56,534 bases of DNA from Paraglomus occultum (lineage: Eukaryota > Glomeromycota > Glomeromycetes > Paraglomerales > Paraglomeraceae), in assembly GCA_910592205.1 (NCBI GenBank), contig CAJVPJ010000051.1, forward strand, positions 1 through 56,534, given 5' to 3'. The position numbers were made by a program, and so were the translations under genes. Positions within the stretch are counted from its first letter, which is position 1. The number at the start of each line of letters is the position of its first letter. Below are positions 6,793 through 56,534 of the stretch, one piece after another. The notes beneath the pieces are model-generated. The model had not been told where the DNA came from and did not search any database. It saw only the letters and a program-made list of their open reading frames with translations.

Positions 6793-7719
6793 CTTAAAAC
6801 TTAATCTAACTGTAAAAGAGATAAGCCATAAAACTTGTATTTTTAAAACATGAATTCTCACTGTTAACTTTCCGTTTCTGGTCAGGAAGATTGTTATTTT
6901 CACATTGAATTATCACACCCAAGTAACTCACTGTCCAAATTAATGTTTAATCATCCAAGGACAAAATGCGCCTATGCCCAATCACATTTTATTGGTTAAA
7001 ACTAATAAATAAAGAAAGATGCATATATCAATGATACGCTTTTTTCATATCAACTTAAGCAGAACAAAAACTTACTTATTCTTTTTGTAGCCCATTATTT
7101 ATTTTTCTCATGTTCGAAATTTCAGTAAGACATTCTGCGCGCCTCACTCAAATGGGTTATGTGGTCGAGTCCGCTATTTAAATTATTAATCAGGTATCGT
7201 ACAAATTAATTCTTGAGCCAGTTGTTGTATTATACAGCAACAAGTATTTAAAGCAAGACTATGGTTTTAATCCGGTTCGTCATAGTAGTCATTTTTGTCG
7301 ACATAGCTCGTTAATATTGTATTTTATTGGACTCTGCAACAAGAATTTTATTCAATCAAACCGTATTAGTATTTGCGTGCAATTATGATGTAGCATATAC
7401 CAGGTTGCAAGTTATCATATGTTTTATTCAGTGGTAATTCTTTGAGGTAAGCTCCGATATGTTTTTTTTTGTTTGAAACGGAAAAAAGCCTTGATGTGGT
7501 ATAACCATGGTTAACTATTAATAGAGAATTTTATTTCACGCCCTAAATGCGATTATGAGAATAGATTAAAAAAGTTATAGCACTTTGGATCGTATAGGTG
7601 GTGCCATCCTTTTCTTTCCTTTCGCGGTAACCTTCGTATCTAACACCTATGTATAAATCACGATGCGTGTGGGGACTCACATCCGCGTCTGGTGTTGGAA
7701 TCTTGGCTAAAGATTATGC

Positions 7720-22118: not shown

Positions 22119-22830
22119 ACCTTGAACGTTAGTGTCAACTAAAAAAAATGTAGGTATCAACACGAGCACGTAGGCATCAATATAACAATGATAATGTGGT
22201 AACGCGCCAGGAATGGATAGGATGCCACTTCCATGTAAAGTTATAGAAACTCTCGATGGGAGTTACTACCGTCTTGATTGTGTTAGACAGTTGTTACTTG
22301 GTAGGTGAAATGGAAACCGTAAGTGCATAGTTCTGAAACTTGAGACGCGAATATCACTTAACGGCGGCTTCCCGATTACAAAGTTTCGCCGTTGCAAGTC
22401 TAGTTGCACGGCTGGGCAATAGGAAAGCAGGTGCCGCTTGCAGTTCTCATCGTCATTCTTGTACTAACAAAGATAGTTTGACATTCAGATTAGAATAAAA
22501 ACATTTATTTACAATCATCATATTTGCGCGGTGGCAGGTGACAAGATGAACCAATAACAGTCAACCTGATTTCAGGGCCAGAACATATATTAAGAAGGGT
22601 TTCAATTATATGACAAATAAAATGTCTTTGGATAACCTCAAGTCCTAGAAAAAGTCCTCCTTGAGCTTTTCGCTCGGGTCTCTGAACAGAGGAGGAAATA
22701 GAGAAAGTGATGAGATGAAAGGGATAATATGTAATCGATGGACTAAAAACGTGCGATACAACATAAGGAACTATGTAAGTGGAATACAAAGAATAAAGGA
22801 AAGAATAGGGGGAAAAGACCCGAACGAAAG

Positions 22831-22988
22831 AGTAGTCTGAATTGAGTTACATCATGTCTGATGCCTCACGTATTGCACTTCATAGATCTTCCACCAGTGG
22901 GCCGCGTTCCAACCACAGACACTCCCGTAAAATCTGTCGTCCCTTGAAAAGGAACGACTTCATATAAGAAAATGCTGGGTATCGTTTC
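22831..22988 (+). repeat. Direct repeat, copy 2
   Basis: It begins AGTAGTCTGAATTGAGTTAC and ends near ATGCTGGGTATCGTTT. Base changes and small indels separate it from copy 1. It is followed by GGTCTCAGCTAGAGAC, a small hairpin, and at 23,122 by GAGCTTTTCGTTCGGGTC, which also occurs upstream of copy 2 at 22,663. The repeating unit may therefore be about 0.45-0.85 kb. Confidence 0.65.
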
Positions 22989-23442
22989 TGGTAACCCACT
23001 CCTCACTCTCGTAAGGGTCTCAGCTAGAGACAAATAATGGTTTTTCTCAGACCTTCACCAAGGGTTGTACTTAATGACCGGAACTCTTTAAAAGTCCAGT
23101 CCGTGTGTTTGCCCTTTACGCGAGCTTTTCGTTCGGGTCGTTTATCCCCCAGAAGAATAATGGGTGATGCAAAAAAAATTAAAGAGGAAAATAACGTAAT
23201 ATTAGATTAAAACAAATGTAATTAAATTATGCAAGCCCGTATAAGGAATCGAGTATAAATAGAACGGATCTATAAAAAATGGGGGGGAGGGTGTTGAAGG
23301 GACCGATTATGATATTTTGCGGACGTGAACTCAATAAAGTAAAAACGTTACGATATATTAAAGAATAAATATTAAAAAGGATATCATCATGTCGGTTGCT
23401 TCGAATCGAATCCATATAAAACGTCCAATCATGTACAGCCTG

Positions 23443-24381: not shown

Positions 24382-26306
24382 TTTGGGGGGTTGATTTACC
24401 CAGGATCGGCATCAAGAAAAAAAAAGAATGAGCACATGACTACTTATACTGCTGTACTGTGTGACAAATTTGACATAAGTACTGCATTAATTATAATAAT
24501 AACTGGATAAGAAAGTTTAATTATTACTATTATTTTGTTGTAACTCTTTTAAAAGCGTATTATAAAAACTTTTTTTATTTTTTAGGAGCAATTGGGCTTG
24601 AATTCTTGATATTCTTGGGCATTTAATTCATCACATGTTTTTATACCAGTATTATTGTTAGTATTATTGTTAGTATTAGTATTAGTATTAGAGTGTAATA
24701 GCATTCAAATCTAGTAGGCATTGAACAAAGTATGTCCAGTGGTGTATAATAATAATAAAGAAGTTTATGGTTAGGGTCACTATATTAATATTAACACGAG
24801 AAGTTAAACCATTGAGGCAGCTTTGGCAGACATTTTAAATTGGAGTGAAAAGCATAAAACAACGTACAAGTGGCTCTCGGTATAAGAAAGTGATCGGGAG
24901 CCATAGTAAAAATCTTAGAATCCTTCTTATACCGAGAGTTTATATAGTAATTTTCTTATATGGAGATAATTTTATATAGACTGTTTTTCAGCTCAACTTT
25001 CGTATATCAAATTTTAATTAGTGTTTCTTATATCGAGAGCTTCTTATTATTATATCGAGTTTCACTTGCATATGTAATTGTTGTGTTATTATGAGGATTT
25101 AGAGGTGTTATTAATATCAATATTAAGTTTTTTACTTGATAAAATACAATATCTTGCACACTCGATTAATACTAATACTCATTAAAATCATATTACAATG
25201 TTCCCAGTGAAATTGAGTAGTAGCAAGCTTTTGATTCTTTATCTTTGTCAAAAGTAATAAGAACACATTTAGCTATAGCATTCTAATGTTTTTTGATGTA
25301 TTTAGTTTTCTGCAAACCTACAAACAATAGCCATATATTATGCTTATCTTGTAGCAAGCAAAACCTGCACAAAAAAGACAAGGATAAAATAGTTAGTCAT
25401 GTTTAGATAGATGCAAAAACGATTGGTTGCTGAAAACTTTTGTTGAAATATGTCCCTTGTCAAGCGATGTCTCTATGATAAAAAATCACTTACTGAATTT
25501 CTATGAAATAACACGTCTACCATACCATCTTCTATATGAGATAAAGGAGCGTTAATCACATGATAGTACGTATAATGATTTGCGAGACAAAAGAATGCCG
25601 CAAGGACGCGAATTGGTGCGTTGCACCTTTTTACGGAATTCGAATGTTTATCTGATGGCTAGTCTCGATAAATGCAAGCCGTGAATTTTGGGATTGCTTG
25701 AAAAAGAAGTTATTTCTAAAGAGAATATTATTTACTTGAAAAAATTGGATTTGTCAAAATATTGTTCAGCAAAAGACAAATGTTTGTCACTTGTTCTGTA
25801 AATTCATTGCGTTAGTTAATCATTATCACTCGCAAAATGAGAGATGGAGGAATAGCTAACGATTAATATCGATATGGTTTTTTTTTTCATGAATTCTTCA
25901 ACGGTTAACTTGCATACGATGTTGCAATTGCCGTCACGTTTCCGATGATATAATTGATCGTGCTGTTCCAGATTTATCGGCGCGGGGCTTACTGCAATAT
26001 TAATCCATTGGACTATGCTTATTCGTTATTCCCATGTCTCAGTTCAATCGTGGGACGTGTCAATTGTATTATAAAATATGTAGTCATCTCTTCATCGAAC
26101 GAGATCACGTGAAATTATAAGCAAAAGTCGTTTTATCCTGTCATGTAAATCATCGAACGTTAATTTATTGACCTGATGGTTGAATGGTTTGTCTTTTTTT
26201 ACAGCTTTGGTAACCGAGCATCATCGGTTGCAACTTATTTTACAGAATAACTTATTCCTTTTGCCTAACAAAGAATAGCTGAACCATTCATCATTGTTCC
26301 AATGGA
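24382..26306. other. Intergenic, AT-rich, one transposon-like palindrome
   Basis: 1.9 kb without a supported gene. It holds short trinucleotide-like TATTAG/TATTGTTAG runs at 24,650-24,700 and the inverted-repeat element at 24,866-25,072. Confidence 0.5.
24866..25072. mobile_element. MITE-like element with CTCTCGGTATAA ends
   Basis: The left end reads CAAGTGGCTCTCGGTATAAG. The right end, inverted, reads CAAGTGAAACTCGATATAAT. An internal inverse copy (CTTATACCGAGAG at about 24,931-24,943) and a further CTTATATCGAGAGC lie inside. The TATAC/TATCG 'CTCGGTATAA' ends are typical of Tc1-mariner/pogo-derived miniature elements. No coding capacity. Confidence 0.5.
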
Positions 26307-28985: not shown

Positions 28986-31879
28986 AGACTATCGTTGTCT
29001 TTTTTCCTAACGATTGACCAGGTATGAAAGTGACAAGAACTATGAACGCAATCTCTTCTCAACATTACTGTATCATACTGAATTTCACAGGTCAACAGGA
29101 ATGTCTCAGCTTTTGCCTTATTTCGCAGTTATGTGAAAAGATAGTAATCCTCTTTTTGATGCTCTACGAGTTACGCGTACGAGATGGGGGAGCCAGTCTT
29201 GAATAACTGTCGCTCGCTCGTAACGCCAGTACAACCTGGTCAAACGTATACGCCGTCGGAACGCCCTTTCAACCTACATTCGATCGTATAACAATTTTGC
29301 GTCGTTATTAGTGGTCCGTCACAAACGTTTACCTGCCGTATTTCCGTCTCGTAGTCATAATGAGAGCAGTTTGGGCGTGTGCGGGGCCTTGTTAGAAAGA
29401 AAAAAAAGGGGGGGGGGGGAGGAGGAAGAATAACTAAATTGAAGATGGTGTGGGAAGCAATTGGACCTGGTATGAAGACAATGTAATAGTCGTATATGGA
29501 TATATGATGGCACTGATATAAAATAAAAATATCGAGAGATAGATACAATGATCATTATGTATTATGTTTGCATCTATAAGTGACAATGCTTCCCAAACTT
29601 TTTTCCAATCAACAGAGAACAAGGAAAAAAATTTTCCACGAAACGCCAATTTTTTTTTGTCATAAGCCACAAAGAAGAAAAGTCATTCCATAGAAAGTTA
29701 AACGGATTTTTGATTGTTTCCGTATATATAAAGAATATAAGTATTCGGTTACAGTTTAATAGAATTGTTGGCGTTGGTTGAATAGCGCAACAATGGGAGA
29801 ATGAGAAAGAATGGGGCGATTTAATAAAGTGATTTGTTCATTATGGTTGACCCGAATGTGATACTTAAAATGAGATAAACATACGTATGTGAAGAAATAT
29901 CGCCCTAAATAATGAACAGAGACCATATGACTCGGTGTTTATCATATTATTATATGCTGAGTTTTTTGAGTTTTGTTTTTGTTATCAAAGCACGTTTTAA
30001 CCAAATAAAAAATAATGGCCTGAGGGTGGATCACAAAATATATTAAATCATATAATAATAATACCATTAAATTATATTATAATAATTAGATTAAAGTACA
30101 ACGTTAATATATAGTACATTATATATTAATATATATATTATGTATTTTATATATACTATGCGAATACATGTAACAAAATTGTACAAGATAAACATAGTAA
30201 CAGTTTTCAAACGTTGGTATATATTCATAATTGTTGACATGAAAACTATTATTATTATTATTATTATTTACTTCTATTCTCATCGATCTGTTACAGAAGA
30301 AAAAAAAAAAGTAAAGCCACACATTCTCATCAATAGACCAGTACATACTTGTCTTGACAGATGTATGTCAAGGCTTATGCGAACAGACCCCACCCCCAAC
30401 CGACACACATCTCTCCCATACACCGAATACACACTAGCTGCACTCATACAGAATGGTGTATATGTGAAAGTTGTTAATCTTGTATCTCGTATTGATAGAT
30501 CTATATCGCAGACAGTGTGCAGATTGTTGAAGGATGTCAAGTCGATAAACAGCAACTTTTGGCACTTTTCAATCGGCTTCCCACAGCTCAGAGTGTGTGG
30601 GGTGCATATGTTGCAACGTTCAACAAATACAAGATCATTCACAATTACAGAGAACGCAGTAGACTTGTTCGGTTGTGATGATCAGACGTTTATATTAATA
30701 TTACTTGGATGCTATTCTATGTTTGCTTTTCCTCTTTTGCTCGTCCACATTCTCTCTCTCTCTTTCACTCACTCACTCTCACTCACTCTCTCTTTTTTTT
30801 TTTTTTTTTGCTTCTCCTTGGCTCTAACGATCACCGCTCCCTTTCCCATCAAAATTTTTTTGCTAAAACTTGTTTGATGCTTCTGTTTGTGTATCAGAAT
30901 AAATCTTATGACACACTTTACTCCTTTTTTCCCATAGTTGGTAAGCTCGAGCGACAATCACCCTAAACAAGCTTAATAACTGAGGTGGTACTATCAGATA
31001 TTAATATCTAAGATTCGTATCGATAAACCGGAGCACAGATAGATGTTTATTCAATTTGCATGACTGGCAAAGTGCCCACTTACCATATATAACAATTGTA
31101 CGTTATTCACTCTGCCTAAACCGTATTTGTTTCCCCAACTTTGCCTATTTTCTCATCCTGAGAATTTTATACCGTACCTCTTCGATACATGCGCTTTGTA
31201 GCATAAACATTTTCTCATACTTGACAGCTACGGGCTGTGAAAAAACGTAAAACGGTTGGAAAAAACTCGAGTGCGTATAGGTCAGATTGATGGGCGAAAC
31301 GCAAGTTTCATGGCTGATACTCGGGGAAAAAAAACCAACTATATAATATTATGTCGTACTATTATTGTATGCTACACAGCGAGTAGCCCGTTTGTTTGCG
31401 TCTAACCGATGCACAAACTATGAAAACTTTTTTACAGTTTGGATGCTGTATCTCCGAATATTAGTGATTGACGGTTACTTTTTTTTTTCCTTGCCAAAAT
31501 TACGTTTGAAAAATTTGTCTTGTAATACCTTTAACAAAAACAAGCGTCTGTCTGTTATCCCCAACGAAGTTCAATGATGACTAATTGTTATATATCATCA
31601 ACAATGGCTATATTGCATTGTACATGCAAACTTAGATTGCCGACATGCTTGCTTGTTTAGAGATAGATAGAGGAAAGAGAAAATTTTGCTTAGTCAAACT
31701 ACTTGTTTAGGTTGATTCATTTGCCACATTGTGCATTTAAGTGTCAGGTGCCCAGTTGCGAAAGGGGTGGAAAGTTTGCCTATACTGCACTATTAGAATT
31801 GCTTGGCTTTTGGCTATTTCGGACATTGTTACCCGTTACTATAATTAACATCGTCTGTTACTAAGTTTATCCGTCTCTA

Positions 31880-37029: not shown

Positions 37030-40000
37030 ATGACCTCTACTTCAGTCCGGTATGTAGATGGAATGTTGGAAAATGAATGAATGAAATTTAATCAATTTGC
37101 ATTCTCAACTCTCTCTCCCACTTTCAATAACGCAATTCGTCTCATTTCTAATCTCTACCCTCTTCTCATATATGCAGGGTCGCTTTGAGGATACGTCCTT
37201 TGAGCAACAAGGAAATACAGCAAAGATGTGATCCATGTATTACAGTAATAGAAGGCGCTCCCCAAGTGCTCATCGGCACCGACCGTTCATTCACATACGA
37301 CTTTGTCTTTCCGTCAGAAACTCAACAGGATGAAGTGTTCGATGACTGCGCAAAGCCTCTTCTCGACAAGCTCATGGAAGGGTAAGCAAACAAGAAAAAA
37401 AAACTGTTACTTTTGGTCGTTTGTGTTATTACGTAATGTATAACAGCACAGTGTATATTACACAAACAAACTGACTCGTTACATAACCAAATTATCTACC
37501 CCTCCCCCCGTACCACACACAGTTATAACGCTACAATATTAGCATATGGGTAAGTAAAATTCCAACAGTTTTTCTATTCGTTTATAAAATAAAAAGTACC
37601 CATTTTTTAACATACCAATATGGTGATATTATGTATAGTCAAACAGGTAGTGGCAAAACATATTCCATGGGTACTGCAATAGATGGCGCTACTATCCCTC
37701 CAGAGCATCAAGGTACATACTTTTACTATTCATTGATTTCCATATTGTAATATTAACTGTTTACAAAAGGTACTTATCCCGCACATTATTTGAACCGCAG
37801 GTATCGTCCCGCGTTCTATCTATAGTCTCTTTGGTGAATTGGAAGCAAAAAAGACCAAACATCCAGAATTTTCCTATGAAGTATTTGTAACCTTTCTCGA
37901 ACTATACAATGAGGATTTAATTGATCTGCTAAATATTCAAACTCATGACAATAAGAAAGCCAAGAACGAGTTAATGATTAGAGAAGACGCTAATGGACAG
38001 ATATACTGGGCTGGAGTAAAGGAAGTCCCTGTGACATCACCGGAAGAAACATTAGAGTACGTGTCAAACATCTATCGATGAAGCACAATAATACGCCCAT
38101 ATGCTAACCATACTTTAATATTTTCAACAGTCAATTACGAAAAGGTTCTCTATGTCGTACTGTGGCATCAACAGATATGAACCAAGTATCATCACGATCA
38201 CACGCCATATTTTCACTGGTGCTGAAGCAGACAAAAATAGAGGACCCAGAAGAAAACAAAGAAAATGAACCTGAACAAACTGAACCACAAAAGAAGCGTA
38301 ACAGCAAAAAAGCATCAGCAAAAATAACATCAAAATTCCACTTTGTTGATTTGGCTGGTTCAGAAAGAGTGAGTTTCCCCCCTCCCCCCCCTTCTTTTTT
38401 TTTCGCTTCTATACATACCATCTTTACATTTGCTAACCCCGTACAAACTATACAATTATTAGTTAAAGCGGACAAACGCGGTGGGCGATCGTGCAAAGGA
38501 AGGCATTGCCATCAATGGTGGTCTTCTTGCATTGGGCAATGTAATCAGTGCACTTGGCGATGCATCACGCAAAGTCACCCACGTCCCATACCGTGACTCC
38601 AAACTGACTCGACTTCTTCAGGATTCCCTCGGCGGCAATTCTCAAACTCTTATGCTTGCCTGTGTGTCGCCGGCCGACTCTAATTTTATGGAAACCTTAA
38701 ACACCCTAAAATACGCCAACCGTACTCGTAATATTAAAAACAAAGTCAGTGTCAATGAGAGTTATGGTGAATCTTCAGTAGAAATAAATCGTTTACGGTC
38801 ACAAGTCAGTCAGTTGAAGATGGAATTACAGACCCTTCGCGCTGGCGGCGTAGACGCAGAAGTTGCTAGGAAGTACGAAGAAGAGATAAATCGTCTCAAG
38901 GGCGAATGTGGACAATTAAAGATGAAGATGGCAAATACAACTCAAGAATTAAATGAAATACGTGCTCATCGAGATACTTTGTTAATGGAGATGGATTTGA
39001 ATAAGAACGCTGGGTCTATGACTGAAGAAGAGCGAGAGGCAAAAATAAAATCACATCCTGTTGTACAGCAATATATCGATCAAATATCGGAACTCAAGGC
39101 CCAAGTTTTCGACTTGCAGAACGCACAGGTGAAACCCGTTCAAGTCGCACCAGCTCAGCCAATACATTCTCAGTCATCGCGGAAATCGTCATTTGCCGGA
39201 AATTCATCCAGGGACAAGGGACACATAAAATTCTATGAACAAGAAAACTCTCGTCGTCATGAGAGCAGTCGACACGATAACGCTGACCTTTCTGGTAGCG
39301 ATGATAATAAGAGACATTCAAAGAAGAAGAAGAAGAAATCCAAGAAATCAAAGGGATCAAGCAAACATCGTGCAGCCGGTCATTTCCCGGTTGAAGGCGA
39401 GGAAGCACGAGGTCAACTAGAAACGCAAGCCGAACATGAACCAGTACGGTCGTTCGTCAAGCCTGCAGTTCTAGATAAAGTTAAAGGACTATTTTCTGAC
39501 CTGCCTCCGGATACAGAAGATTGTGATGATGATAACGAAGACCTCTCGGCAGATCCTCAGGACGATTTTGAATACACTGATAGCAATGGCCAAAAGGTAA
39601 CTCGAAGGCTCCGACGACGCAGCGTCAAGGATACTCTTGAGAAAGCCAAAGAACAGATCCGACAAGGTCTATTGTTTATAAAGAATGGTGGCTCAGTACA
39701 CGATGATCCTGTTCTCGGTCAATTAGTAAAGACACCATCTTCGACAAAGAGTGAAAGCTATATTGACCAAATGTTGGCTGGAAAGAATGAAAAACGCCGA
39801 TCGAGCAGCGTGTCATTCAGCGATATTCCGACAATGGACGTTCCATCTTGGCAAGAATCAAACCCTCCTCCGCAGCAACAGACTCGTCGTGCTTCCAACT
39901 CTAGTCGATCTGTCAGTTTCTCAGACCAACCAGCATCTCCTCACTCCACCAAGTCTTCACAGGACAGTACCGGAGGCTCGTCTCAACAGAATGCCATTGC

Positions 40001-42452
40001 ACTCAAGAGAATGTTGCATCAGATACAGGCCGACATTGCCGTTAAGGAAGAACTGGTGGCTCAACTAGAACGCGCTGAACAAGAATTCCACTATATGCGC
40101 ACTGCCTACGAAGAGAAACTGGTTCATATGCAAGAATGTTTGATCCAATTACAACGTGAGCGTGAAATTGCGGTGAAGCGTGCTGCTAACTCGGGTGTTA
40201 GCACCCGCGACAAGAATTCAATCTTGACTGAATTAAAGGCGCGATATGAACACAAGATGAAGAAGCTCATAGCCGAAATTGGTGATCTACGTCGTAAATG
40301 CAACGAAATAACGCAAACCCATCAGACGGCCAAGACTCAAAATGAAACGACCATGCGAAACATGCGTATCCAAATCGAACAGCTCAAAGCAGAGAAATTA
40401 CGTATGGTCAAGCGGATGAAGGCCGAAGCCGATCGTGTCCGAGAAGTGACTGAACGCACTCAACGGGAGATTCAGAACCTCAGGCGTAAGGCAAAGTCAG
40501 TTCAGACTGAAAAGAAGAAACTTGAACGCCAGACAGAGTCTCAAAGACTAATGCTTGAAAAGAGAACCAAAGACATGCTCAAGGCGAACAGCAAACTAAA
40601 GTCTGTAACGTCACTGTTGAAACAGACTACGACGCCGAAAGCTATAGCAAAGGTATTCAGACAGAACAGGCGAAAGACAAGCATAGACTTGGAGAAAGAC
40701 AGCCCACCTGGAAGTCGCCGTACCTCTGACGAGATTCGCGCAATCGAGGAAGAGATATATGCCAGTGGTTACGATAAGAAGAAACTTCTCGATACTGCTA
40801 TATTCCAATTCATTTCTGGTAAGCAGTCGCTGGCGATGATGGACGAAATGGTCAAGAAACGTGATGATCTAGTCAACGAGAAACAAGAAGCTCTTAATGA
40901 ACGCGAAAGGATAATGGCCGAAAACTGCGACGAGCATGGAAATCTTGATCCGTCTAGCGAAGCAATGGCCCAGGATTTGGAAGACAATATTGATATGATC
41001 AACTCTGAGATTTCATATATCAATGCTAAACTGAGATCACTGCAAGCAGAAACGGCTCGTAACGCCAAGCCCGAAAGCGAGTCACGAAGGAATAGTGAGG
41101 ACGTTAATCAAAAGGCAGCTCAACAAACCAAAGGTACTACCAACACTAAAGAAAGACGTAGGGGCAGTGGGGGTGGCAAGAAGAAGTTCTCCATCTCACA
41201 AATACAGAGCGCCACTCCTGAAGCCGCATACGATTTTGCAATGACTATACTTCGTAACCTGGATTCGTTCGAAACTCAAGCAATAGTAGAGTCGTTCTTC
41301 AACGACATTGTCAAATTACGAACAACCGACTGGTCAGCCCAAATGACGTTGAAAGATCGAGAAAAGACTATTACAGACCTACGAAAGACGCTATTGGCAA
41401 TGCGCAGAGCGGCAGTATTAACAACGGTTGAATACGAGAAACGCAACAAGGTGCTAGAAGATGAGATGAGACGTGGATCGTTGCATTCGGAAAATCGTAC
41501 ACCAAGCCCGATATCACCTACCACTTTGGAATTACACATGACTGATATTGAAAACGACGCAGTCAACACGATGGACTTCTTTGATCGCATTTACAAGCAA
41601 GTCGAAGCGGAAGTAACATCGCCGGGACCGATCACATCGGAAAACCTTCACGATGCTCCGATAGGCAAACCATCAAGCAGAACGTCATACTTCCACGATG
41701 ATTCCTACTTTGACTCTCCCACGGTCTACTCGCCTCATTCACCGAGAGACTTGCCCAGCTCTAAACGCAACAGCTTTGCTCGTGCTCCACTGCCGCCAGG
41801 ATGGCTCAAAGACCCAACCAAGCGCAAATCGTCATCGGGGTCGGGCCAATCTGATTCACGCCGAAACTCTCAACAACATGATCGCATACCAGACTCGCGA
41901 CGCGGTTCACAGCAATTGGATCGTGGATACGAATCTGCTCGATACACGGATGAAATAGAAAAGAAGAGCTCGCTGGGCCGAAGTGGGTTGCATTGGACTG
42001 ATTCAATGGACACATTACATGACAAGTACGCACCCGACAGCCCCCGCACGCCGGGAGAGAAGCCACGACGAGATATACGAGATCGACGAGGCTCATTACG
42101 CGACTCTCATAGCAGACGAAACAGTGTTAGCAGTTTAGGCTTGTACAATGATCGCGCTCCAGATGGCATGCGAGAACATCGTGATAGCGGGTATTATGGA
42201 TCGGTTGACAAGAAACGAATGGCGAATATGGCACGCAGAGGCTCCAAAGATCTTTCACATATGCGTCAGAACTCGTACGGTGGTGCGCCTGATGACGATA
42301 ACGTCAGTGTATGCAGTGATCGATGTGTCCATACGCGATCGAATACTCCGGATATTCCAAACGTATTTGATCGATTATCGCAGTCTCATACGTTATCGAG
42401 CAAGTATCGTGACAAGAGACTACAGACTCCTGAACCAGTATACGCCACATAG
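37030..42452 (+). CDS. Kinesin-4-type motor protein
   Basis: Seven exons: 37030-37049, 37178-37381, 37523-37549, 37639-37712, 37801-38056, 38131-38368 and 38463-42452, all GT-AG, giving 1,602 residues. The N-terminal motor (residues about 1-360) has P-loop GQTGSGKT (84-91), switch I NQVSSRSH, switch II DLAGSER (267-273), and the family-typical [26 protein letters not shown] and [28 protein letters not shown]. These last two point to the kinesin-4/KIF4-KIF21 group, plus-end motors acting on microtubule length and spindle or cargo organisation. Next come coiled coils (about 373-492, 782-999 and 1027-1135), a Lys-rich block (about 557-577, [16 protein letters not shown]) and a disordered tail. 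The tail carries about 15 R/K-R-x-S/T sites. The first exon encodes only MTSTSVR. No frame breaks. Confidence 0.92.
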
Positions 42453-49193: not shown

Positions 49194-50496
49194 TGATGCT
49201 ACCCCTCCAAGACACAAACGTCTCGACTTGCATGCTTTCGATAATAATAAAAGTAAACATGTTACTTATTATTTTGATCTACACGCATGTTAGAAGCAGT
49301 TCCAATAATCTAAGAATTCAACTTTCGCTTGTTCGTCTCCCATTGTCTGACTGTTGAAAAAAATTTTTCATTTATTTTCCTCTGCTGTTGCACCGAAAGG
49401 GTAATTAGTGATCGAAATGGAGTTGGGCTAAGCCCCATTCGGATAATACGCAGCAGTGAATATTAAAGGTAGAGTTGGACAAAGACCGTAAATTGGGGGA
49501 AATGTGGGATATTATTAATAGACTGCTGTACTCACTGTTGATGGGATTTTAAGTGGGAACATTACTAGCTACGTTTGATTAATGTTGAGGCTTGTGCTTT
49601 TCGTTCTGTTAGTAAAGGGGAAAGAGAAAAAAAAATATGTTTACATTGTCGTAGTTTTTGGGTTAACGAATTTAATATCTAAAGATTATATCTATCTAAT
49701 TGATGGGTTGTGTGTTACCGTAATCTTTGTCGACATCATATTACATAATGATTGCCCTACTCATGTGACATGTGTCAAAAAGAGTGATCAAACGTTCGGT
49801 AATAAAACGGTGACTTTTGGATCATATTATTCGTGACTCGCAAATCGAATGTTTTGATATTTTGTCAGGCAAGTTTATTTACGATAGAGTTGAATACTAA
49901 AACCTGTCTATCTAAAAACGAGGCTTTTAGTCAGCTTGCGGTCTGATTTCCGAAACTAGCAGAAGAAAAACTGACGGTCATTCGATGTCAGCATAATACG
50001 TTGACCAGACGTCAGAATCACGCAGTAATGAGGTTACACCAATTTTAAGTCCATCCTCAACGAAGACTGAAAAAAAAAGAGTTTTTGGCGTTACTCATAA
50101 TGCGTTTGTTAGTAACTTTTTCACAAAACAAAAATAATAACCCGTGAATGCATTACAAATCCGAAAGCTGCATATTGCTCGAATCAATTACGTAAATTCA
50201 CTTCTTTTTATTTTTTATAATAATAAAGTATGAGGCTCGACAAATAATTACATCTACTGTACGGTGAACCTGCTCTATCTATACAGTAAGCGTCCAGTCA
50301 TTTTGAAGCAGTTTTGAAAGGCGCGATATTTAGGTGTAAAGAAATGTTAATGTCGAATTAATATTTATTAAATCAATTTAAACTCATCCAATTAAGAACG
50401 AGTTTTATTACTATTACGTTAATATTTAATTTAATAAATTAAGAATATAGTTACATTGTTTTAATAGTATGGTGCGCCAACTCTATAAAACCACTT

Positions 50497-50635
50497 GTCT
50501 TTAAAATCTTCAGCTCAATATAGAGGCTTTTTTTTTGGAAAATCTGCCAATAATTATGTTTATTGCGACATGCTTACAAAGTTACTGGCTAGTTTGTCAT
50601 AAAAACGGCTCTACGTTGAGCTGAAAGGTTTAAAC
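50497..50635. mobile_element. Inverted-repeat (MITE-like) element next to the bacterial block
   Basis: AAATCTTCAGCTCAATATAG on the left is matched by AAACCTTTCAGCTCAACGTA read inversely from the right. About 45 bp at each end can be aligned at roughly 75 percent identity. TTTTTCAGCTCAAC also occurs at about 24,985 within the other MITE-like element, suggesting a shared family. It lies about 200-700 bp from the boundary with Mollicutes-type DNA. Confidence 0.45.
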
Positions 50636-50846
50636 TTGGAGTACATTTTATAAGCTTTTCCGAAAAATTGGTGAAAGCGATAGTGATTCGTGTAGCTCGT
50701 GTGACGTGGGATTTTCTGATTAATATCTCCCTATAAAAAGTCGAGGCGAAATAACAGAAACTAATCAACATCTAAAACTTTATTCAATAACTCGTTAATG
50801 TGATTTATACTTCTTTACCGTCCACTTTCATAGCAGCCGCAGATTA

Positions 50847-51281
50847 CTAAATACAGGTAAAATCAAATAGTGGCATTATTTTTGTTCTGCCCACCCGCAT
50901 TATCACAAGTAATTTTTCACCTTTGTTCAATTTCTTGATTTCATCGAATACCAGGATCAGTGTACCATTAGGGGCCTTTGCCAATAATTTTATCTTCATC
51001 GAGTATGTAATTAATTTGTTCGCGTACTGCCTCATCTTGAATACCAAAAAACGAGCAAGGATTTTGAATTTTGTAATAACATAACACTTTACCAATTCAT
51101 TAGCATAATCACTAACCCATAGGCAACAATTGCTTTTTAGAATGTCCTGCTCCGTAATAAATTGCTGACAAATGCCGCAGGAAAATTCCTTTAAATAGTT
51201 AGTTAATCGTTCAGCCTTTTTTTTGTTTAGTTTCTCAACCACTCAATTTTTTAAAATCTCTTGCATTTGTTGTTTCAACAT
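50847..51281 (-). CDS. Small protein of unknown function, probably Mollicutes-type
   Basis: From ATG 51281 the frame reads 144 residues if the single UGA (51245-51243) is tryptophan. With the standard code it starts only at GTG 51242 (131 aa). The N-terminus is a Lys/Gln-rich helix. A Cys-rich piece follows (CGICQQF, SNCCLW), then basic hydrophobic sequence ending FDFTCI. TGG is also used for Trp. The UGA, the AT-rich codons and the neighbours to the right suggest this is the first bacterial gene. If so, the boundary with fungal DNA lies at or left of about 50,850. No family is recognised. Confidence 0.45.
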
Positions 51282-51424
51282 CTCTACTTGACTTTCAACT
51301 TTGGTTTTTTTAAGATTTAAGTGTCTTTGTTTGGGATTTTACCGTAAATATTATTATTTTTAGGACAAGAAAAAAAGTTTTAGGTAGAAGTTGCCTAAGT
51401 AAGTATTTTAAAATACAATATATT

Positions 51425-51682
51425 ATGAGAGGACACAATGTAAATATCTACTTTTCCGAGAAAACTTATAATAAAATTAAGCCTTTAATCGCTCAAAGAA
51501 AAGTCAGTGAGTTTGTTAATCAAGCCGTAGAAAAAGAACTAGCCAAAGAGCAAAAGAAAGAAAAAGCCGAGTTAAGAAAAAAGTTAATCGCTGCTTACCA
51601 AAGACAAGCCAAAAATAAGAAATTACAGGCTGAATTATCTTTGTGAGATAGCATATCAGGAGACGGCTTAAATGACAGGTAA
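51425..51682 (+). CDS. Antitoxin-like small protein of a type II toxin-antitoxin pair
   Basis: 85 residues when UGA 51644-51646 is read as Trp; under the standard code it would end there at 73. It begins with a short strand-helix segment (NVNIYFSEKTYNKIKPLI, SEFVNQAVEKELAKE) typical of ribbon-helix-helix-type antitoxin DNA-binding ends, then a Lys/Glu-rich helix that would be the toxin-binding part. Its 3' end overlaps the start of the downstream toxin by 11 bp in a different frame, the usual layout of co-translated antitoxin-toxin operons. Such antitoxins bind the toxin and repress their own promoter. Confidence 0.65.
51656..51674 (+). promoter_or_regulatory. Shine-Dalgarno site and start of the toxin gene
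   Basis: AGGAG at about 51,657-51,661 sits ten bases before ATG 51672. A bacterial ribosome-binding site inside the end of the antitoxin gene supports translational coupling and a bacterial origin. Confidence 0.6.
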
Positions 51683-52061
51683 AAAACAGAGTAATAAGGC
51701 ACTTCCGTTTCCAAAACAAGGAGAAATCTGATTAGTGAAATTCCCACCTACCAAGGAAGACCGCAAACCAATCCGACCTTGCTTAGTAATTAGTGATAAT
51801 ATCCAAAACGAGTATGCTAAATGAATAGTAGTTATCTCTCTAACTACGGAAGATATTAAGACCATTGAACCCTTTGAAGTTTTTGTTGAGAATACACCAG
51901 AAACTGGACTGGATTACCCCAGTAAACTCCAATTAAATTATCCCTGCACCATTGATCGAGTAAGATTAAAAGAGCATTTAGGAGTTTTAAATAGAAAAAG
52001 AGTTAGAGAACTAAGGAAAGCCTGACAGATTGCTTTTGATAGTGAAAATTGGGAGTGGTAG
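51672..52061 (+). CDS. MazF/PemK-family toxin-like protein (UGA read as Trp)
   Basis: ATG 51672 to TAG 52061, 129 residues in the Mollicutes code. Three in-frame UGA codons (codons 20, 51 and 118) stand where Trp is expected; two TGG lie at the C-terminus. The first UGA falls in the family motif at the start of the fold (GEI-Trp), followed by RPCLVISD, both hallmarks of the MazF/PemK/Kid endoribonuclease fold. Members cut mRNA when freed from the antitoxin. Length is slightly above the family's usual 105-120. In a fungal nucleus the first UGA would truncate it after 19 residues, so it would not be expressed as a functional toxin there. The frame is otherwise intact. Confidence 0.7.
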
Positions 52062-52085
52062 TGGTTTAAAAAAAATAAATAAATT

Positions 52086-52277
52086 ATGCCAAAGAAGAAA
52101 AAACTGCTCACACTACCAAAAGAAAAGCTAAAAAAACACAATTACGACGAGGAGAAAACAAAAAAGGAATTAAATAAATGAATAAAAATAGTAAAAATAA
52201 TATTATCACACGACAATACAGTAATTTCACTAATTACTAATTTTAAAAACTTAAAAAAACAGTTGTTAGTCTGTTAA
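52086..52277 (+). CDS. Small Lys-rich hypothetical protein
   Basis: 63 residues if one UGA (after ELNK) is read as Trp. The N-terminus is very basic (MPKKKKLLTLPKEKLKKH), then hydrophobic. It lies between the toxin gene and gatB on the same strand, 24 bp after the toxin stop. It may be a real short gene of the same operon or a chance frame in Lys-rich sequence. Confidence 0.35.
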
Positions 52278-52325
52278 AATTGGAATAGATAACACTTTAA
52301 AAACAACAAAACAAACTTATAAAGA

Positions 52326-53865
52326 ATGGGTAATCAAGAAGAGAAATCATTAAAAATTTTACTAGGCTTAGAAATTCACATTACCCTTAACAGTCAAAAA
52401 AAAATCTTTAATTGAGAGAACACTTATCAGGGAGATATTTCTCCCAACAGTCAAGTAGGTCCATGAGAACTAGGCTATTTAGGAGTTTTACCAATCATTA
52501 ATCCTGAAGTTATTTTACTAGGGTTAAAATTAGCCTCTGCCTTGGAAATGAAAATTAACCAAACTATCCTTTTTGACCGCAAAATCTATAATTATTTTGA
52601 TTTACCAAAAGGCTACCAAATTACTCAACAAGAACTTCCCTTTGCTAATTCTGGCTACTTGCCAATTGTTAAAGAAAATACAATAAAAAAAATACCAATT
52701 AAAACTCTTCAACTAGAGGAAGATACTGCTAAAAGCATTTACGATAAAGAAGGAATTAAATTAGATTTTAATCGGGCGGGTAATCCCTTAGTCGAGTTAG
52801 TCACTGAACCAATTTTTTCGGAAGTAGAAACAGTTTTAATATTCATCAAGCAACTCCAAAATCTTTTGCGTTATTTAGAGGTTTCTGAAGCCAAAATGGA
52901 AAAGGGACAATTGAGGGTAGATTTAAATTTTTCTTTGAAATTAGGAAATAATTATTCCACACCACGCTATGAAATCAAGAATCTTAATTCACTTAGTAAT
53001 ATCGAAAAGGCTTTAAAGCATGAAATTAACAAGCACCAACTGTTATTTTCTCAACAAAAAAGCCCTCCCGCTAGCCAAACACTAGGCTTTGACGAAGCTA
53101 AGCAAATTACCAATGCTAATCGTGAAAAAACTGACTATTTCTATTTGCCAGAATTTAATATTCCTCCCATAAGACTGAAAAAAACAGAAATACAAAAAAT
53201 AAATAAAAATTTGCCGAAATTACCTTGGCAACATTGAAAAGAAAATAAAGGAAATAGATTTAGAAACTGCTAAGACACTTCTCAAAAACGCACTTTTGTT
53301 GAAAACTTTCGATTTTTTAGAAAAGAAAGGACTGACTAAAAAGGAAAGTAAAAATTGAACCGCCTTTTATCTAAATTATTTATCTCCACATTTTGAAGAA
53401 AAGAATATTGATTTATTTGCTAAAAAATGAAAGTCTTACTCTGGACTGTTTGAATATTGAAAAGAAAAAAAACTAGACAATAAAGAGATAATTGAAATAG
53501 TCCATTCTCTTTTAGCAACCAATAAAACTTTTCCTACTTTGGTGAAAAAATATGATAAAAAAACAATCATTAATAAGGATTTAATAGAAATGGAATTAAA
53601 AAACTTATGAAATACTGAATTGGAAAAAAAAGTTATTACCGATCAGCAACGAGTTCAAAATTACCTACTGGGACAAATAAAAAAAAAATTTCCTGATTAT
53701 CCTTTAAAAGAAATCATCGGAACTATTATTAACTTTCTTAAAAAAAAAGAATTAAAAAGTGGGAAAAAAGACTTTTCTAATAATTCAAAAATTCTTTTCA
53801 ATTATCAGGGGAAACGGTTAGGCTCCCCACATCTTTATAATAGAACAACAATTAAGAAAGAATAA
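52326..53865 (+). pseudogene. gatB: gatB, Asp/Glu-tRNA amidotransferase subunit B, frameshifted
   Basis: Part 1 runs from ATG 52326 in frame to about 53,234. Part 2 continues in the +1 frame from about 53,230 to TAA 53865. Together they make about 515 residues, near the family length (about 480). The subunit serves GatCAB, which converts Glu-tRNA(Gln) to Gln-tRNA(Gln). Matches include LLGLEIHITLN at the start, FDRKIYNYFDLPKGYQITQ, DFNRAGNPLVELVTEP and LRVDLNFSL. The C-terminal tail (VITDQQRVQNYLLGQI) resembles the YqeY-like tRNA-binding end. UGA for Trp occurs at codons 30 and 47 and at least four times in part 2. The zinc-site Cys residues of many GatB are absent (GPWELGYLG region). gatB is normally essential, so a frameshift implies a dead copy or a sequence error. 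Confidence 0.8.
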
Positions 53866-53908
53866 CATTTTAAAACCCTTATTTGTTAACTGAAAACACT
53901 TCACATAA

Positions 53909-53944
53909 GGAAAAACGGAAATTTAAATCCGGTTTCCTTTTTTT
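53909..53944. terminator. Rho-independent terminator between convergent genes
   Basis: GGAAAAACGGA and TCCGGTTTCC form a stem with a small bulge around an AATTTAAA loop. The stem is followed by TTTTTTT on the plus strand and preceded by an A-rich stretch on the other side. It lies between gatB (ending 53865) and the convergent surface-protein gene (ending 53964) and could serve both strands. This is a bacterial-type signal. Confidence 0.7.
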
Positions 53945-53963
53945 ATTCGTCCTTTATTTAAGA

Positions 53964-56534
53964 TTACTCTTCCTCTTCATCACTACTGTTATTTTTCATG
54001 AAATAAACAATAGCGCCAACAATTAAAGCAATGCATGCAAAGATCGTAATAATTCCTAATGGAGTTTGATAAAAAGGCTTATCTTTATCATTATTGTCAT
54101 TAGGAGAATTAGTTTTTTTCATCTCTGAAACTCGCTCCCTAACCTCCCTAATTAATTCATCAATAGTAACTCTTTCTGTATCTTCTAATCCCTCATAGAC
54201 TGTTTTAGCACTACCATTAGACTGGAATTTTTGCAAGCTAGTTAATTTCCCTTCAAGAGCATTTACTTGACTATTATCAGAATAATCTGGGTCAGTTTTC
54301 AAATTAATTTTATTTCAGAAATGATCAACCAAATTTGTTAATTCAGTCACTTCCGGAGAAGTTGGCTTGCTTTTTAAACTAGCAAGTAACTTTTTCCGAG
54401 GAAAGAACTTTTTAGTGAAAACTTTTTTTTGTTCATCATCAAGTCCTGTGACACTATTAAAAGCCGTTTCTGCTTCATTTACTTTATCTTTGCTATCTGC
54501 TTTATCTAACTTAATTTGCTCAACAATTTCTCTTATTTTTGCTTCAAATTTACCCAACGCCTCTAAAATTGTTTCTGGATAACCTTTGCCAGCAGGATCC
54601 TTTTTTACTTTGTTTGCAGCAGTTCAAGCACCAGTAGATCCTTTTCTTAATTTAGACAAATTAACATAAACTTCATTACCTTCCTGACTATTTTCTTTCT
54701 TACCATCTCCCTTCTTGGCTTCTTTAAGGATTTTAACCACCTTTTTAAGCACTTCCTTATCACTTTCAATACCAATAATTACTTGGTCGAAAGACGTTTT
54801 AACTTCATTACTATCAGCTGCTTTACCTAAAATTTCACCAATTGCTTTTTTTAAATTCTCTTTAACTGTTTCAATACTATCATCGCTAACATTCTTAACT
54901 TTTTCTCATGCTCCATCACACAATTTTACATTACCATCTTTAAATTCATCATCATTAACCAAATCTCAGGCAGTTTTTTGTAATTTCTTAATTGGGTCAG
55001 TTTCGGCAGTTGTCAGTGCTCGGTAAGCCGCTATTTTATTTTTGGCCGCAACTTTTTTATCGTTAGTAGCATTATCATCTTAGGCATCTTTCAATACTTT
55101 TACTATTTCCACTACTTCTTTGAATCTTTTATAACCCTCTGAATTTGCATCACCTTTTCCTCCATTACTTCCAATTATTTTTGCACTAGTTCATAATTTA
55201 GCAAATTTATTACCATAATTGGCACCTTTAGCAGCATCTATCTCATTTTCTAAAGCAGTTTTTATGCCTAAAAGAACATTAATTTGGTCTTCTCAACATT
55301 CCCAAATTTTCTTCTTATTCGGGTCGCTAACATTATACTCTGTTTTCAACTTTTCTGCCTCTGCCTTTTTTTCCTCTGGAGTAGATTTACCCTTAGCTGC
55401 TTCATATTTTTGAGCAAAGTCATATACTAGATCATAAGCTGCCTTAGCTTTAGTTCTTGGGTCATTCGGACCCGTGTTGGTGTTGGTTTTAAAATTACTA
55501 CCAGCTCAATTAGAGCTACCTTTAATTTCATCACCACTCCTATCATATAAAAAAGTAGTCCCAAAATCTCCTGCTAATAATCAACCAAAATAAAGATTTA
55601 AATGGTCTAAGGCACTTCTTGCCGGGTTTACTTTATCACAAAAATGTTTATACACGTAAACTTTATTACTACCCACTGTTTTTTCTTTTCAACGGTCATC
55701 AAGATACTTGCTACCTGGTTTAAAATAAGCATGTCCGAAAAAGATTAAGTCAATTGCTTCATCGACAGTTGGAGCCACCTCAGCTACCGCACACAAATAA
55801 GTTGTTTGTCCATCTTTCGCACTTTTTACAGCAAAAGGAGTTGATGAAGTTGGGTCATAAACTGAAAATTACCGTATAGGTCGCCATGACCAGTAAAAAA
55901 GTTACTGTCATTAGAAAAATCTTCTATTTTATAACCTCGAAAATCCTTAATCGTTTTGTTAGCATCATACTCCTTCAAATCAAGAAACAACAAAAATCCC
56001 ATCAACGCAACTTTTAGTGATTTTGCCCGCATTGGCAGCCTGCCCGCCAAATTCCAAGTTTAGATTTTCATTTGCAGCACTAATTTTTTTGTCATTTTTA
56101 CCAAGGGAAACCGTAACACTATTAAGTGCACCAACCGTTTGATTGACATCAAAAACCGGTACTCCTCTATATTTACCACCCTTAATTGTGAATATTTTAG
56201 CATTATTAGTTAAATAGTTGGTATTAGCTACTACTTCTGATGCGGCTGTATCCGAAATATTATTGAGATTTAACCATTGAGCATTACCAGTTAATTTACC
56301 ATAATTTGCTCCTACCCCTTCATCTGTTTTGTGAACAGCCGATTTTGCTGTTTGCTACGGAATTACTTAATTGGTCAAAATTCCACCCCGAGTATTTTGG
56401 ATCGGGTGACAAGTTGGTGAAACGCATGTATTTTGTGACTCATTTGTATAACTTAGATTCGAACACCAACTTGGTCACTTGATCATAAATAGTGACAATT
56501 CGCGAGTAGACGTCTGAGAGGGAAATGGAATACA
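53964..56534 (-). pseudogene. Large Lys/Asp/Glu-rich surface-type protein with C-terminal membrane anchor, broken
   Basis: Read right to left with UGA as Trp, one long gene spans at least 2.5 kb and continues past the window edge. From about 55,855 down to 53,964 the frame is continuous except for a TAA at 55,082-55,080. Left of that break it is helical and charged (for example EGYKRFKEVVEIVKVL, KEVLKKVVKILKEAKKGDG, two similar blocks that hint at repeats). The last 35 residues hold a hydrophobic helix (GIITIFACIALIVGAIVYFM) and an acidic tail (SSDEEEE), giving a C-terminal anchor. Frame changes are needed near 55,855-55,875, about 55,965-56,040 and about 56,340-56,360. No family is recognised; a surface-exposed or secreted endosymbiont protein is likely. 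UGA and TGG are both used. Confidence 0.6.
56352..56534 (-). other. Higher-GC end segment, origin unclear
   Basis: The last about 180 bp are visibly richer in G and C than the preceding Mollicutes-type DNA. On the minus strand one frame is open throughout (SLSDVYSRIVTIYDQVTKLV, then PDPKYSGWNFDQ) with a single UGA between YK and VTK. That favours a UGA=Trp gene, perhaps the N-terminal part of the surface protein after a frame break. The plus strand is also open over about 120 bp (WSKFHPEYFGSGDKLVKRMY), so a return to host DNA cannot be excluded. Confidence 0.4.

Follow-up and report, generated by a model that had tools for sequence, protein, structure and literature searches.

Endobacterial DNA bounded by fungal repeats on a contig of Paraglomus occultum: a probable insertion into the nuclear genome

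When fungal and bacterial sequences are joined on one contig of a fungal genome assembly, it must be asked whether the join exists in the nucleus or arose when the DNA was amplified and assembled. A contig of the arbuscular mycorrhizal (AM) fungus Paraglomus occultum raises this question. The window, i.e., the whole stretch of DNA analyzed here, is the complete contig C51 (56,534 bp), and the genome that was searched comprises 32.3 Mb in 1,408 contigs. The smallest contigs met in it were about 10.1–10.2 kb long (C1377 and C1372), and the comparisons below cover contigs of approximately 10 kb upward. Short contigs seem to have been left out of this set, and arguments from absence are therefore limited, as competing continuations could sit in them.

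The original prediction was that fungal DNA passes into DNA of the Mollicutes type at about 50,850, and that this junction is either a true nuclear insertion or a chimera. Such a junction is present on the contig, and the partners were correctly named as an AM fungus and its Mollicutes-related endobacterium (MRE). The boundary itself must be displaced by approximately 200 bp to the right: the sequence of 50,824–51,051 is still fungal, and DNA of the MRE type begins near 51,052. The order on the contig is a truncated fungal repeat (M), a piece of another fungal repeat (A), the MRE DNA, and a third fungal repeat (B). Thus, three breakpoints are found on one contig: 50,823/50,824, 51,051/51,052, and 56,329/56,330. 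The features are as follows.

50,462–50,823, + strand: fungal dispersed repeat M with an internal palindrome; copies on C291, C44, C245, C78, and other contigs.
50,824–51,051, + strand: internal piece (228 bp) of the fungal dispersed family A, cut on both sides; identified from genome copies.
51,052–56,329, no strand assigned: segment of probable MRE origin (5,278 bp), identified from genes with UGA for Trp, MRE relatives of gatB, and matches to MRE contigs.
51,425–51,682, + strand: antitoxin-like gene with one UGA; ORF under code 4.
51,672–52,061, + strand: PemK/MazF-type toxin of a toxin-antitoxin pair, with three UGA; PF02452, E = 2e-20; open under code 4.
52,326–53,748, + strand: gatB with a frameshift near 53,250; PF02934 (GatB_N), E = 3.3e-82.
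53,964–56,329, − strand: surface-type protein with a C-terminal hydrophobic segment; read from frames, without an intact homologue.
56,330–56,534, + strand: left terminus of the fungal dispersed repeat B, identified from genome copies; the contig ends inside it.

The left side had been described as fungal DNA with the standard code and introns, and this description holds. A KIF21-like kinesin at 37,161–42,449 matches the P. occultum protein P0121 in five tblastn pieces, which are separated by gaps as introns would give, and the kinesin ORF of 38,463–42,452 is 98% identical to the P. occultum protein 6617_t. The Pfam matches on this side (homeodomain, kinesin, and NICE-3) are eukaryotic, and a nuclear RNase P RNA is located at 22,821–23,135. 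The left flank is unbroken in the contig from the kinesin through repeat M, whose 362 bases lead up to the junction. An inverted repeat previously noticed near the boundary proved to be real (50,500–50,533 and 50,601–50,634, 79% complementary), and it lies inside M.

The structure at the left junction was clarified by comparing the copies of M and A. The M copies of C291 and C44 stay alike for 120 bp beyond 50,823/50,824, the point at which the window departs from C291; thus, M is cut off there in the window. The A piece was found at no fewer than 40 places in the genome, the window included (40 of 130 candidates were scored), and its coding sense, judged by eye, presumably corresponds to a DDE-type transposase. 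Seven other A copies were compared. All of them extend approximately 400 bp or more further to the left, and to the right five of the seven extend more than 800 bp, one (L006) approximately 70 bp, and one (L004) not at all. Since the other copies extend beyond it, the A sequence of the window is an internal fragment that was cut at both ends. Both of the fungal repeats that adjoin the left junction are, in other words, truncated at it. The best A match is that of C122 (98.7%), with three mismatches at 50,834, 50,854, and 51,049, and 194 bases of A are identical between the two. This identity probably exceeds the k-mer length, and the connection of the left flank with the MRE DNA across A therefore depends on read pairs; any alternative pairing across A still puts MRE DNA beside a fungal repeat. 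A second copy of the fungal left-flank site was not found in the contigs of approximately 10 kb upward, where all 19 candidates were scored; the rows of this search were M copies 69–87% alike and one exact run of 26 bases. For the uniqueness of the flank we use this search and not the one with 40 of 130 candidates scored, which was rejected as proof of it.

On the right of the A piece, the predicted compact genes with UGA for Trp were verified. This is best illustrated by gatB, in which all eight Trp codons fall on Trp positions of its relative P0001, and seven of the eight are TGA. The gene is read in one frame to about residue 309 and then continues in another, where 113 of 165 aligned residues are identical. 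Among the best 120 of 5,066 gatB relatives, the similarity was 86% for the best one, P0001 (unnamed), 81% for P0004 of Candidatus Moeniiplasma, and 79% for P0012 of GvMRE. Many proteins of AM-fungal assemblies rank high among these 120, and those high-ranking relatives that bear a name are MRE proteins. When gatB was compared with genome contigs, the best 80 of at least 587 relatives were at most about 42–43% identical and bore no MRE titles; another such scan of genome contigs gave no relatives. MRE contigs also match the segment directly: C853 matches 51,252–51,311 (60 bp), and C1324 matches 51,559–52,085 (a 530-bp match). For 51,052–51,251, no MRE homologue was found among the loci compared. 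In the antitoxin-like gene, 25 amino acids are identical to a frame of C1324, and Pfam gave no family above the cut-off. The terminator signals that had been claimed for the right side could not be confirmed as a characteristic of it: two were counted, as compared with a mean of 2.7 (sd 1.8) in shuffled sequences. The promoter-like sites of the right side were not in excess either (24; shuffled mean 20.3, sd 5.1).

As read from its frames, the surface-type protein is broken by frameshifts at about 55,985 and 55,830 and by a UAA stop codon at 55,080–55,082, and its frame enters the junction with B. Its pieces gave nothing above the Pfam cut-off, and an open frame on the MRE contig C89 is weakly similar to it (E = 2e-5). 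The only database homologue among 8,000 candidates was P0242, a model of this same contig. This partial P. occultum gene model (6619_t) was built on the MRE-type sequence of 53,964–56,329 and spans the frame breaks. In total, one stop and three frameshifts are distributed across the MRE genes, i.e., the MRE DNA is degraded.

The right junction coincides with the terminus of a repeat. Sixteen of the 26 rows of B begin at 56,327–56,330 of the window, and none begins earlier. Pairwise comparison of 15 B loci, the window included, revealed that the copies stop at the same edge within approximately 14 bp; 12 loci, again with the window, have unrelated left flanks, and the other three start 19–26 bp inside. 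Two contigs, C1006 and C792, break off after exactly the first 77 bp of B, over which they are identical to the window. The usual k of SPAdes is 77. The k-mers given by Malar et al. (2022; PMC9453076) for a run of their own were 21, 33, 55, and 77. As the 77-bp ends resemble a k = 77 graph vertex common to B insertions, they suggest that reads linked the MRE DNA to B. No other continuation of the MRE flanks was found in the contigs of approximately 10 kb upward, with all 29 candidates scored. Because the contig ends inside the fungal repeat B, the MRE DNA is bounded by fungal sequence on both sides: M and A on the left, and repeat sequence only on the right.

Three further short MRE pieces were found between fungal stretches on other contigs. 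One is a 163-bp fragment of the MRE antitoxin at 25,419–25,581 of C402 (5420–5582 of L018; E = 1.3e-30). C922-like sequence is found on both sides of it, that on the left amounting to only 33 + 25 bp, and the C922 relative does not have the fragment. At one Trp codon, TGG of the C402 fragment stands against TGA in the copy of the window. Another is an insertion at 131–271 of C1377 (L139) relative to C113, which contains two MRE bits. They match C853 at different places and on different strands: one is 98% identical over 56 bp (E = 9.9e-18), and the other is a weak match of 83% over 47 bp (E = 2e-4). A 13-bp sequence of C113 occurs on both sides of this insertion, at 118–130 (with one difference) and at 272–284 (exactly). 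The last is a 55-bp MRE-like piece at 6,914–6,968 of C334 (415–469 of L140; 89%, E = 1.8e-11), which lies between stretches colinear with C1372 and beside a low-complexity palindrome. Comparison with an empty site is cleanest for C1377 against C113, and less clean for C402 against C922 and for C334 against C1372. The inserts were placed by local matches, as global alignments located them poorly. As a control, 12 MRE loci (43,436 bases with spacers) were compared with 17 fungal loci (118,705 bases), and no match with E < 1e-6 was obtained. When positions 1–50,823 of the window were compared with the MRE loci, eight rows were obtained, all of which fell on a CT-rich simple repeat at 30,748–30,793. 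The three short pieces bear on whether insertions occur in this genome; the case of C51 is not proved thereby.

Some weaker similarities were also observed. A 53-bp stretch of C48 (15436–15488; 1501–1553 of L137), lying in a stretch of about 40% GC, is 83% identical to the MRE contig C89 (E = 1.5e-6), and judging from this match it is possibly another small insert. Weak MRE-like matches are also present on C1136, C1305, C707, and C18.

The assembly contains MRE sequences on contigs of their own as well. C537 (22.4 kb) carries a full bacterial 16S gene beside ORFs with in-frame UGA, and C89 (46.8 kb), C853, C1324, C662, and C1222 are MRE contigs by their gene content or by matches to these. The assignment of C89 is based on a polC match and six further stretches. 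Free MRE DNA was thus sequenced together with the fungus. An earlier argument, that the join must be nuclear because the assembly holds no MRE genome, was dropped once the 16S and polC genes had revealed these contigs. A search of the assembly for DnaA gave no match, and a search for gatB gave only the window copy and one 43-residue match on C839. On C89, a valS-like frame (2538–4004 of L122 with 2–430 of L121; by eye) looks shortened, and only a C-terminal piece of polC is present (1474–3060 of L121); these broken genes may reflect either the plasticity of MRE genomes or more degraded MRE DNA. C1324 (L017) has several P-loop GTPase-like ORFs with in-frame UGA, some with leucine-rich stretches by eye.

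The history of the sample determines how seriously a chimera must be taken. From the style of its protein names, we take the assembly to be that of the single-nucleus set of Montoliu-Nerin et al. (2021), and both its source and its method are our assumption. As described in that paper (PMC10512289), sorted nuclei were amplified by MDA, samples negative in bacterial PCR were chosen, sequencing was done on HiSeq-X, and pooled, normalized reads were assembled with SPAdes 3.12. The word "occultum" is absent from the main text of the paper. Malar et al. (2022) cite the work of Montoliu-Nerin and colleagues for P. occultum and P. brasilianum. Their own P. occultum assembly (DAOM 240472) was built from pooled spores with metaSPAdes/SPAdes, and clusters with bacterial matches were taken out ahead of the final assembly. 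Longley et al. (2024) report MREs in 19 of 389 assemblies, with which the free MRE contigs found here agree. The separate MRE contigs and, if the assembly is the published single-nucleus one, its MDA-amplified nuclei are the reasons for which a chimera deserves a serious hearing.

A chimera would have arisen if MRE DNA was sorted along with the nuclei and then became joined to fungal DNA, either while the DNA was amplified by MDA or when the assembler met A or B. The free MRE contigs and the MDA and SPAdes workflow of the presumed source paper would allow this; the 194-bp identity with C122 offers a place for a misjoin inside A, the contig ends in B without reaching unique fungal DNA on the right, and chimeric MRE-fungal assemblies are mentioned by Longley et al. 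(2024). However, separate artefacts would be needed at the M-A, A-MRE, and MRE-B joins, the last of them precisely where a repeat ends. Neither side was found to continue in another way among the contigs of approximately 10 kb upward, and the sampled MRE loci carry none of the fungal repeats that were compared (0 matches). The three other contigs with short MRE pieces are also hard to fit, since chimeras would not restore the fungal colinearity around a bacterial fragment. We therefore regard a chimera as unlikely.

Two other explanations accept part of the structure. The MRE segment might belong to an MRE replicon that gained fungal repeats from its host, only the join to the chromosome on the far left being an artefact. 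Genes of host origin are known from MREs (Longley et al. 2023), and A and B do adjoin the MRE DNA directly; nevertheless, not one of the fungal repeats compared occurs in the 43 kb of sampled MRE loci, and the left flank runs without a break in the contig through M to the kinesin, which makes this origin very improbable. Alternatively, the DNA may have been transferred and put to use, the fungus now employing the MRE toxin-antitoxin pair or gatB. Under code 4, no stop interrupts the PemK/MazF frame, and a gene model (6619_t, P0242) is annotated on the MRE part. In the nuclear code, however, the three UGA of the toxin and the seven of gatB are stops, gatB is frameshifted, and the P0242 model crosses the breaks of the surface-type protein. 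Functional transfer is accordingly hardly credible.

The reading that we prefer, with a probability of roughly 75%, is a real nuclear insertion that arose through break repair and that, as the nucleus reads UGA as a stop, is inert. It is favored by the fungal repeats at both ends (the right one at its terminus), by the lack of any other continuation in the contigs compared, and by the MRE pieces on three other contigs. Of the two possibilities originally proposed, the evidence of both-end repeats, broken genes, and three other pieces thus favors insertion; it does not amount to proof. The degradation of the genes was also considered as proof of nuclear residence, and it was judged weak for this purpose: pseudogenes are common in MREs, whose genomes are described as rich in them (Longley et al. 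2023), and valS and polC on C89 are broken too.

By such an insertion, a fragment of the MRE genome would have entered the P. occultum nucleus and been caught in a repeat-rich intergenic stretch. The DNA may have come from lysed endobacteria and reached the nucleus, where end-joining repair of a double-strand break could have captured it, and the 228-bp A piece would be filler in this repair. Repeat B may have been inserted later into the MRE piece, or may have been joined in the same repair. The MRE DNA would since have been inert and decaying, and its expression is not expected, as gatB alone contains seven UGA codons that the nuclear code reads as stops. The inserts of C402, C1377, and C334 look like products of the same process, that of C1377 with a putative 13-bp target duplication. 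It seems rather probable, if somewhat less so than the insertion at C51 itself, that the P. occultum nucleus holds a population of MRE sequences, ranging in length between about 50 bp and more than 5 kb, caught at broken repeats over time. This would represent a continuing flow from the symbiont to the host that is silenced by the UGA difference.

If real, this flow from bacterium to host is the reverse of the direction in the reports on MREs cited here. Host-derived genes in MRE genomes were described by Naito et al. (2015) and Torres-Cortés et al. (2015). Longley et al. (2023) treat transfer from fungus to MRE, and hits confined to Glomeromycotina are set aside there as possible MRE sequence. 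In a survey of horizontal gene transfer in an AM fungus (PMC5982333), the donors given are not known MREs, and a route through unsequenced endobacteria is left open. A 2026 review (PMC13315312) refers to inferred gene transfer from endobacteria in Mortierella and to possible transfer to hosts in Zoopagomycota, and the title of a Gigaspora paper (PMC7732545) names a domain with a bacterial signature. Among the open-access titles and abstract openings that were examined, no report of a nuclear insertion from an MRE into a fungus was found, and the novelty of the present case is provisional. Nuclear MRE inserts, if they can be dated, would record past infection as fossils do and could serve in the debate on the early versus late invasion by MREs. 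Importantly for annotation, such inserts warn against taking all MRE-like sequence found in fungal assemblies for contamination. Dropping or retaining whole contigs fails for mixed ones, and 6619_t was modeled on just such a segment.

Finally, the proposed insert can be compared with known systems. It appears to resemble numts and nuwts, in which pieces of the genome of a resident organelle or endosymbiont lie without function in nuclear DNA and are attributed to break repair. Here, unlike in those cases, the donor belongs to the Mollicutes, lives inside an AM fungus, and reads UGA as Trp; this comparison draws partly on general background. The host-derived genes of MRE genomes involve the same partners, and there the transfer is in the opposite direction, from the fungus to the bacterium. 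A parallel in material is provided by the Mucoromycota assemblies of Longley et al. (2024), in which MRE DNA is likewise present in fungal assemblies, as it is here on C537, C89, and others. In that study the MRE contigs are treated as extractable bacterial sequence, whereas in P. occultum a single contig carries MRE DNA together with the fungal repeats that adjoin it.
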